Source of the DNA: a virus
Strand: one strand, 5' to 3'
IMG/VR virus record: IMGVR_UViG_3300048919_000249
Location: 1 to 42,646 of that record
Length of the DNA stretch: 42,646 nt
A program made the translations under genes and the position numbers. Positions 34,087 to 36,463 of this stretch are shown here, piece after piece. Numbering within the stretch: the first letter of the stretch is position 1; each line of letters starts with the position of its first letter. Below the pieces are notes generated by a model. The model searched no databases. It had not been told where the DNA came from and saw only the letters and a program-made list of their open reading frames with translations.

Positions 34087-35343
34087 TTAAGCGCCTGATC
34101 TAAAACGAATGGCTTTCTTTAATAGAAAAATTTTCCTTTCCAAGTCGCCTGACGAAAGAGGGGAGTCTAAGAAGGAGTTTGCCTCTGATACGCTGACAAG
34201 ATCTTTGCTCCCAACATAAAAGAGTATCAGGTGCGTAAAAATACTGTGGAGGTGATGCCCTATTTGATTTGCTATGCTGGAGCTGTGGTTTCCATGCACA
34301 TTTCTATTCCTATAAACTCTTGAGATTTCCAAAATTTGCCGGACAAACTCTTGATCTTTGTAAAGGTAAGAGCAGCGTTTTATGATTAAATCACTTTTGT
34401 CGCCTTCACCCACCGTCGCTTCCAATGCACCCCATAGCTTTATAATAAGATGATCATTGTCGCTCTCGTCTAATGCTCTGACATATCGTATTATTCCATC
34501 TCTGATTTTGGTGCCTCCTTTAATTTGTTCTATGCGCCTGAAAATTTTCCTTATTTTCATAGCGATGTGTTTCAAGTTTTCTTGATTAAAAGTATAGGGG
34601 GTTCTAATTGTGTGATGTGGTTCATACCAAAACTGTTTGCTCGCGACAGCTCCATCTTCACTATGCACGCTATGTAATCCACCTAGGCGAATACGATTTA
34701 TACCTTTGCTCTTACCTCCCGATAGCAACAACGACATTGTCGGATTGGCAAAAAAAGATAAAATTCCACGAAAGAAATCTATTTCTTCTATCGCTGCATA
34801 CATTGCGTCATCTGGAGTGCGAGATTCAACTTTTACTACAACTCCTGCAAATTCAGGTGGGGTATGAGGTTCAAGTTGTTGCCAATGTTTGTCGTATTGG
34901 CTTCGTGATATGAATTTTTTAGGGATGCCCGATTGATAGATTTTTATTTCAATTCCATTGTTAATGAGCTTGGTTATAGGTAGTTTTCCATTTGTAGAGA
35001 TGGACGTAACTACAAAGAATTTTTTCTTGCTTTTGGATAGATAGGTTTTCAGTTTGGAATTTATACATGCTAGAAGCGCTGCTGGTAAGTTTTGGTTGGT
35101 TGTTTTTGAAGATAGTGCAAAAGCGTTTAATCCTGAGTCAAAGATGTCATCTTCCGTTTTTGGAGAAAGAAATTCTTTTCCTTCAAAGAGGATCATGCTT
35201 CTAAGTAGGCCCCAGTTTTCGAAATATTTGAAACCATCGTATTGCACTTTGCCGTTTTCATTTATAGAAGAGCATTCTAGTATCGGCTTGATGAAGATCT
35301 GTGGATTGAATTTTGCGCTTTTGTCACTCCATTTTGCTTCCAT
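34087..35343 (-). CDS. ApeA-like HEPN protein
   Basis: A 418-aa protein if started at ATG 35343, which has GAGGAG seven bases upstream; an in-frame ATG at 35424 would add 27 residues and overlap the upstream gene. The C-terminal third is a HEPN domain: IIKLWGALEATVGEGDKSDLI followed by ISRVYRNRNVHGNH, where R345-N-x3-H350 is the RNase-type R-x4-H motif. This layout, ALE-helix then RN...HG, matches Apea-like HEPN proteins. The N-terminal 270 residues are a beta-rich, AT-rich region with no catalytic motif, probably a sensor. ApeA is known as a phage-defence HEPN protein. Here the gene follows a second HEPN gene, suggesting an RNase pair. Confidence 0.65.
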   Translation of the reverse strand: MEAKWSDKSAKFNPQIFIKPILECSSINENGKVQYDGFKYFENWGLLRSMILFEGKEFLSPKTEDDIFDSGLNAFALSSKTTNQNLPAALLACINSKLKTYLSKSKKKFFVVTSISTNGKLPITKLINNGIEIKIYQSGIPKKFISRSQYDKHWQQLEPHTPPEFAGVVVKVESRTPDDAMYAAIEEIDFFRGILSFFANPTMSLLLSGGKSKGINRIRLGGLHSVHSEDGAVASKQFWYEPHHTIRTPYTFNQENLKHIAMKIRKIFRRIEQIKGGTKIRDGIIRYVRALDESDNDHLIIKLWGALEATVGEGDKSDLIIKRCSYLYKDQEFVRQILEISRVYRNRNVHGNHSSSIANQIGHHLHSIFTHLILFYVGSKDLVSVSEANSFLDSPLSSGDLERKIFLLKKAIRFRSGA

Positions 35344-35401
35344 TTCGAACTCCTCACCATTCCAGATCAAGAAATAGCTGCAATGATTTGATAATTGCTC
35401 A

Positions 35402-36463
35402 CTACGGTTCAACCTTCCTCGCATTTCTGTTTACCCAAGCGAGGTGCAATGTTTCCGGTATATTGCTCGCGTGGAGGAGGCGTAGCGCGTTATCGGAGTA
35501 TCGTGGATGTCGTTGGCTGCCGAACTCAAAAATCATCATATTGGCGGCGTCTTCATCTATCTCAAGATAATCTCTAAGGGCTTTACAGCGAGGAGGAGTG
35601 ATACTTAATTTTTCCGATAGTTGTTGAGGGCTTAAATGATATTTTTTTTGAAGGTCAACTTCTCGTATTGCCCCTGCCGCTCCTGGATCGTCGCCTGATA
35701 TAAAACGAACAGGTGCTCCCTCTTTCTTGCTGAAGTGGACTTTGACGGTTAGCCCTTCGCCTGTCACGTCGCTCGCGAGAGTCATCAACCTTGGAAAAAC
35801 CTCAGAGACCTCTGTACGATTTTTTATTGCTCGCTCAATACGATTTATATCTCGCTCTGACACGGCAATTTGCTCGGTGACATGTCCCTCCATTGCAAGT
35901 AGAGTTCTGATTCTTCCCCGAGCTTCGTCGCGTGCTCTTTTGTTAGGAGCAAGAAGTTCTGCAATTTGCGTGTATTCGTTGTCGATTAACAGTTCAAACT
36001 CTCTAAGCGGTGTAGTCGAAAGAGGTAGAACTCTCAAAGGGAGGTTTCCGGAAAGAGAATCTCCGAAGTGTAGCTTTAGAAGTTCGTCAATGGTCGTGAT
36101 CAACGCTCTCGAATTTAGATATAGCACTTCTTCAGATACAACAATCATCCAGTGTTGGGCCGCATCCCGCATCGCGTCAATAGTTCTAATTGTTCCTGCT
36201 TGGGAAGCATTCATGTATCCATTGGCTGTCGCCACATTCAAGGCTCTCTCTAGCCCGATAGAGATGCCTTTTTCTTTGTCAAAAACTGGTTGAGATTTCT
36301 GAATCAGCAACGCCTTAATGAGCATCTCACTGCAGTGCTGCATGTGCAGAAGTACGGACTCGGTACGACCTTGGTCGTCGTGGCTATTGAACACCTCTAG
36401 GCCCCGGCGTAACGATGCAATGCCCTTGCTTTTGAGTGTTCGCGCTTCTCGCTTAAGCTTCAT
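35402..36463 (-). CDS. DUF3644-like HEPN protein
   Basis: A 353-aa protein. The first 150 residues follow the DUF3644 pattern: IASLRRGLEVFNSHDDQGRTESVLLHMQHCSEMLIKALLIQ, then FDKEKGISIGLERALNVA and AGTIRTIDAMRDAAQHWMIVVSEEVLYLNSR. Within it R99-D-x3-H104 is a HEPN R-x4-H motif, as in HEPN ribonucleases. The C-terminal part (residues 280-350) has a helical DNA-binding-like stretch (YHLSPQQLSEKLSITPPRCKALRDYLEI) that resembles a winged helix. It is the promoter-proximal gene of a two-gene operon with the ApeA-like protein. No nucleotidyltransferase antitoxin (MNT) accompanies it, so it is not a standard HEPN-MNT pair. Confidence 0.7.
   Translation of the reverse strand: MKLKREARTLKSKGIASLRRGLEVFNSHDDQGRTESVLLHMQHCSEMLIKALLIQKSQPVFDKEKGISIGLERALNVATANGYMNASQAGTIRTIDAMRDAAQHWMIVVSEEVLYLNSRALITTIDELLKLHFGDSLSGNLPLRVLPLSTTPLREFELLIDNEYTQIAELLAPNKRARDEARGRIRTLLAMEGHVTEQIAVSERDINRIERAIKNRTEVSEVFPRLMTLASDVTGEGLTVKVHFSKKEGAPVRFISGDDPGAAGAIREVDLQKKYHLSPQQLSEKLSITPPRCKALRDYLEIDEDAANMMIFEFGSQRHPRYSDNALRLLHASNIPETLHLAWVNRNARKVEP

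Follow-up and report, generated by a model that had tools for sequence, protein, structure and literature searches.

An undescribed HEPN-type gene family and its DUF3644-type neighbor in the cargo slot of a phage

Do two adjacent genes that each carry the R-x4-H motif of HEPN ribonucleases constitute one dedicated system, or did they come to lie side by side in another way? This question is raised by the window, a 42,646-base IMG/VR virus record taken in full. The first-pass annotation had described two neighboring co-directional genes at 34087–36463, with the motifs RDAAQH (R99-H104) and RNRNVH (R345-H350), and had proposed that a DUF3644-like and an ApeA-like protein form a heteromeric RNase or a sensor–effector unit. 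Both genes and both motifs are present as described, with the genes on the minus strand. We refer to the upstream gene as A and to the downstream gene as B (table 1).

Table 1. Features of the window discussed in the text
Feature	Coordinates	Strand	Description
52-bp tandem array	31577–32065		7.7 copies, 91% matches
umuD-like gene	32370–32795	+	Peptidase S24
umuC	32788–34065	+	Convergent with B, 21 bp apart
Gene B	34087–35343	−	418 aa from ATG at 35343; undescribed family; N-terminal alpha/beta region (residues ~1–250); C-terminal HEPN-like region (~272–380) with R345-H350 (RNRNVH)
A–B gap	35344–35401	−	58 bp from A stop to B start, no overlap
Variable cargo block holding A	35357–39343		~4 kb; no match to sister phages
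Gene A	35402–36463	−	353 aa; PDC-S19/DUF3644-type HEPN protein; HEPN domain (residues ~1–135) with R99-H104 (RDAAQH); C-terminal winged-helix-like region (~272–345)
Two tandem paralogous genes	36812–38572		Adjoining A
66-bp element	39344–39413		Conserved, noncoding; far side of the cargo block
~140-bp element	40160–40310		
Three-gene run	40348–42243	−	Possibly another cargo module

Motifs and Predicted Folds of Genes A and B

Gene A belongs to a known family of candidate defense proteins. The PADLOC profile PDC-S19 matches it over its full length (residues 1–348, E 2e-161). The Pfam profile DUF3644 gave an E value of 7e-4 with A itself, below the cut-off, and was matched by all eight members of the A family examined (best E 2.3e-14). 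Anantharaman and co-workers (2013; PMC3710099) placed DUF3644 among the HEPN families. The R-x4-H motif occurs in a single copy in A, and R99, Q103, and H104 are invariant both in an alignment of eight A proteins and in a set of six viral A proteins. The predicted structure (pLDDT 79.5) has as its best VIA match the HEPN protein 2hsb (Z 14.4, rmsd 2.3, 122 aligned residues); further HEPN matches are HepT (Z 12.5), the HEPN domain of human sacsin (Z 12.2), and HepS (Z 8.6), and toward its C-terminus the model is similar to the winged helix of RacA (Z 6.3). The full-length profile match and the HEPN fold with its R-x4-H motif support the assignment of A to the HEPN proteins of PDC-S19/DUF3644 type; the first-pass annotation had called it DUF3644-like. 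Sequence searches of solved structures returned no meaningful match for A or for B.

The longest open reading frame of gene B starts at 35424 and would encode 445 aa. We preferred the ATG at 35343, which agrees with the starts of the homologs and is preceded by a good Shine-Dalgarno sequence, GAGGAGTTCGAAATGG; the motif is therefore numbered R345-H350 in the 418-aa product. An R-x4-H on its own is weak evidence, and a second one, RLGGLH, is present in B. The heptapeptide Y344-R345-N346-R347-N348-V349-H350 is invariant in 14 of 14 aligned B proteins, down to about 28% identity. No match to B was found among the Pfam, PADLOC, or NCBIfam profiles, and PHROGs gave a weak partial match of 27 residues (E 0.0085). 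The model of B (pLDDT 81, pTM 0.82) combines an alpha/beta N-terminal region with a C-terminal helical bundle and is helical over residues 254–378. Its best VIA match is again the HEPN protein 2hsb (Z 6.0, rmsd 3.6, 109 aligned residues, covering residues 272–380), ahead of HepT 7bxo (Z 3.8). A Foldseek search of the PDB and BFVD with this model gave nothing significant at an E value of 0.001. Given this null result and the modest Z score, the HEPN identity of B rests jointly on the motif, its conservation, and the predicted fold; together, the conserved motif and the predicted bundle support a HEPN-type protein, with a modest structural match. In both models, the R-x4-H lies at a helix end of the HEPN-like bundle. 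The earlier prediction that both genes are of the HEPN type with an RNase motif thus agrees with motif conservation and with the modeled folds. Family B is a new family of HEPN-type proteins, previously undescribed and lying outside the 2023 PADLOC set, Pfam, and NCBIfam.

The earlier label "ApeA-like" was not supported for B. The HEPN_Apea profile (PF18739) matched neither B nor the relatives scanned alongside it at E values up to 1, and an hhalign comparison of B with two ApeA proteins, made with a shallow profile, gave a probability of 0.2%. We consequently dropped the identification of B as an ApeA. Profile comparisons of B with A, with Ymh, and with the gene that precedes B at locus L028, all with shallow profiles, gave no match, nor did a comparison of B with the single protein bearing an ApeA-like motif from a Psychrobacter locus (L067).

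Distribution of the Two Families and HEPN-like Genes Upstream of B

Family B was found at 15 loci, ten of them viral. Outside the window, its members come from Psychromonas, a plasmid of Shewanella, three genomes of Psychrobacter, and another nine viral contigs, the same nine in each of two viral scans that used different profiles. Most carriers of B are temperate phages that infect proteobacteria. The dN/dS ratio of B lies between 0.07 and 0.21 in all pairs with an estimable dS, and B is under purifying selection in phages with or without A. At one of the viral loci, in a Mu-like phage (L029, 5001–8149), B stands behind a gene resembling virion-morphogenesis genes and is convergent with the candidate defense gene PDC-S39 (DUF7380/DUF4209, E 1e-101).

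Family A was found at 16 loci including the window, and the 15 others do not encode B. Fourteen of these 15 are plasmids, from Xanthomonas, Azospirillum, Rhizobium, Rhodococcus, Arthrobacter, and Paracoccus, and five viral contigs. The fifteenth was identified among 369 gammaproteobacterial genomes, in a genome without B. Relatives of A adjoin restriction or defense genes: an Eco29kI restriction–modification system, hsdS, PD-T7-4, and a ThsB TIR gene. The last lies on the Paracoccus plasmid (L021, 4001–5508), where a ThsB-type TIR gene (PF08937, E 1e-13) comes immediately after a DUF3644/PDC-S19-like gene, possibly as a two-gene pair. At L035 (2–5570), a PDC-S19-like gene and the end of a type I restriction hsdS overlap, and a large ORF that resembles hsdR by eye comes next, placing a HEPN gene within a restriction operon.

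When we compared the A and B profiles with every ORF of the loci collected by then, A adjoined B in the window only. This neighborhood survey yielded no further case of the pairing, and A–B was rejected as a recurrent pair; a tblastn search of the phage collection with A and B gave no match. The part of the pairing idea that stood is of another kind: B repeatedly has genes from other HEPN-like families beside it. With A included, the genes that precede B on the same strand, at a distance of about 50–150 bp, are HEPN or HEPN-like in four cases and unrelated to one another. In Psychrobacter, a Ymh HEPN protein (PF09509) is encoded directly upstream. At L028, the upstream gene carries an NRHxxxHA/G motif kept in three homologs of 19–28% identity. 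At L031, it encodes an RNAIEH protein, whose SECRNAIEH stretch is kept in a Photobacterium homolog (39% identity). Such neighbors seem more common than we would expect for random cargo.

This pattern raises the alternative that B is an exchangeable effector or partner occupying the second slot of two-gene modules, in which the leader controls whichever effector comes next. The diversity of the leaders speaks for it: a DUF3644/PDC-S19 protein in the window, Ymh in Psychrobacter, the NRHxxxHG protein of L028, and the RNAIEH protein of L031. So does the diversity of what follows related leaders. A homolog of the L031 leader with 76% identity is followed by DUF4238, and the distant A homolog of Paracoccus by the ThsB TIR gene. 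A full-length Ymh match was obtained in 12 of 105 Psychrobacter genomes (Psychrobacter loci L055–L065 and L067–L073); B follows Ymh in three, and the same-strand gene in the others encodes RES (four), LPO_1073 (two), a protein with an ApeA-like motif (one), a nucleoside-deoxyribosyltransferase/TIR-like protein paired with Mrr (one), or another protein (one). However, at eight loci (L003, L007, L025, L026, L027, L029, L030, and L032) no HEPN leader precedes B, in L002 a DUF3800 gene does, and the leaders of L028 and L031 are taken as HEPN-like from a conserved motif. Moreover, the Psychrobacter site, upstream of osmC, is a general hotspot, which holds numerous other cargoes in genomes that lack Ymh. 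A defense hotspot is therefore the simpler explanation of the variety of genes behind Ymh, and we keep the modular reading as a rival, one that we consider doubtful. In its broader form, it would imply an architecture not described before, with a HEPN leader (DUF3644, Ymh, and others) as sensor or restraint and, in second position, an effector that can be freely swapped: HEPN family B, RES, ApeA-like, TIR/nucleoside-hydrolase-like, or DUF4238. This architecture with these effectors seems unlikely to us; if real, it would represent a new modular type of defense.

Exchange of Cargo Upstream of B

The comparison with three sister phages, designated L002, L025, and L026, was decisive for the relationship between the two genes. 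The window DNA is 88% identical to L002 and 78% identical to both L025 and L026 through umuD, umuC, and B. In all three comparisons the match stops at 35354–35356, 11–13 bp before the ATG of B. On one side of this junction, umuC stays beside B in each sister phage. On the other side, the content differs from phage to phage: A and two HExxH proteins in the window, DUF3800 and a cluster judged PAAR-domain-like by eye in L002, a short spacer followed by a PIN_8 gene in the opposite orientation in L025, and small ORFs in L026. B and umuC thus form the stable part of the locus, and A is part of the swapped cargo. The cargo block is flanked by the B–umuC block on one side and by a conserved 66-bp noncoding element on the other, and both A and B are oriented opposite to the late genes of the phage.

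The 66-bp element starts with TGGGGCAAAAATGGGGCAAA and recurs beside cargo genes; it may be an attachment site, a promoter, or something else. Copies of 82–86% identity are present in L002, in L025, and twice in L026, and 64 IMG/VR stretches (L079–L142) contain exact copies of a 29-base form. Using three integrases as bait, a test of low sensitivity, we found no integrase within 1 kb of the element. The window, L002 (4469–4608), and L026 (47–177) also share an element of about 140 bp. It ends in GGGGTTCGAATCCC, which resembles a tRNA T-arm, and its position relative to the cargo differs among the sister phages. Scanning the cargo region with Rfam and for tRNAs gave no match. As neither ARAGORN nor Rfam detected a tRNA at the 140-bp element, we can only infer its origin as the scar of an attachment site.

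The first of the two tandem paralogs next to A matches the aKG-HExxH-type peptide beta-hydroxylase family (NCBIfam TIGR04267, E 5e-13) and has the motif HEMGH; the second has HAMGH and has therefore lost the catalytic glutamate. The array of 52-bp units beyond umuD covers the 3′ region of an HMCES/YedK-like gene; this gene is shortened in the window and intact in L002 (9080–9763) and L025 (5656–6351). The three-gene run encodes a 362-aa protein with motifs resembling those of GHKL ATPases by eye, a STAS-like DUF4325 protein (E 2e-8), and a short protein with a hydrophobic N-terminus.

The position of the junction bears directly on the initial proposal of a dedicated heteromeric RNase or sensor–effector pair. 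The arrangement in the window would fit such a pair, as A and B are on the same strand, 58 bp apart, with both R-x4-H motifs intact. However, homology ends within the A–B gap and leaves A in the swapped block, B is conserved without A, and the two are unpaired at all other loci, 14 of B and 15 of A. Among the collections searched, the adjacency is peculiar to the window, and we regard a dedicated pair as very improbable. A toxin–antitoxin relationship, with A or B as the toxin and the other one restraining it, is brought to mind by the structural similarity of the A HEPN domain to HepT of HepT–MntA, but it is hardly credible, as neither gene encodes a nucleotidyltransferase antitoxin, both retain the RNase motif, and each is found without the other.

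The best reading of the juxtaposition is cargo assembly, without a dedicated two-gene system: A and B are probably separately acquired, autonomous anti-phage genes of the HEPN ribonuclease type in the exchangeable cargo slot of a temperate phage. The 58-bp spacing permits co-transcription, and a functional link may exist in the window phage alone. More generally, the swapping of cargo beside prophage umuDC can make unrelated defense genes mimic an operon, a warning for guilt-by-association predictions.

Proposed Mode of Action and Comparison with Known Systems

HEPN proteins with an R-x4-H motif are usually metal-independent endoribonucleases active as dimers (PMC3710099, and general knowledge). 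If A and B are autonomous cargo genes, each would act as its own homodimeric endoribonuclease, expressed from the prophage. The part outside the HEPN domain, the alpha/beta N-terminal region of B or the winged-helix region of A, would restrain the protein or sense a trigger. When another phage superinfects the cell, cleavage of cellular RNA by the HEPN dimer would bring growth to a halt, and this arrest would protect the lysogen population. B could readily be tested as a candidate abortive-infection RNase encoded by prophages.

The closest counterpart of A is PDC-S19, a single-gene phage-defense candidate of PADLOC, with its whole-length match and invariant R99, Q103, and H104; unlike it, A happens to precede B. 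Our literature search found no defense test of PDC-S19. HepS of the Salmonella Gifsy-1 prophage (PDB 9oik), which was solved bound to a phage tail-tip protein, is likewise a prophage-encoded HEPN protein, but it has the HEPN fold alone in common with A, as a 218-residue chain with no winged helix noted.

Three systems can be compared with B. Ymh (TIGR02391) has an intact R-x4-H (RNNRAH) and directly precedes B in three genomes of Psychrobacter; it is, however, a separate HEPN family, and nine other Psychrobacter Ymh genes are found without B. ApeA, like B, has a C-terminal HEPN domain with R-x4-H behind a nonhelical N-terminal part, whereas the N-terminal region of B is alpha/beta in the model and ApeA-NTD1 is described as mostly beta. 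Compared by architecture only, Tha of Staphylococcus aureus resembles B in being prophage-borne, with an N-terminal region without known domain and a C-terminal HEPN R-x4-H (RNSIMH, R265NSIMH270). It differs in its length (301 aa vs. 418 aa), in belonging to a phage of Gram-positive bacteria, and in having the inhibitor Ith, for which we identified no counterpart for B. Tha degrades RNA once the infecting phage makes tail proteins (PMC11087260). It is the nearest precedent in function, and on the most economical view B and A would each work in a similar way, independently of one another.
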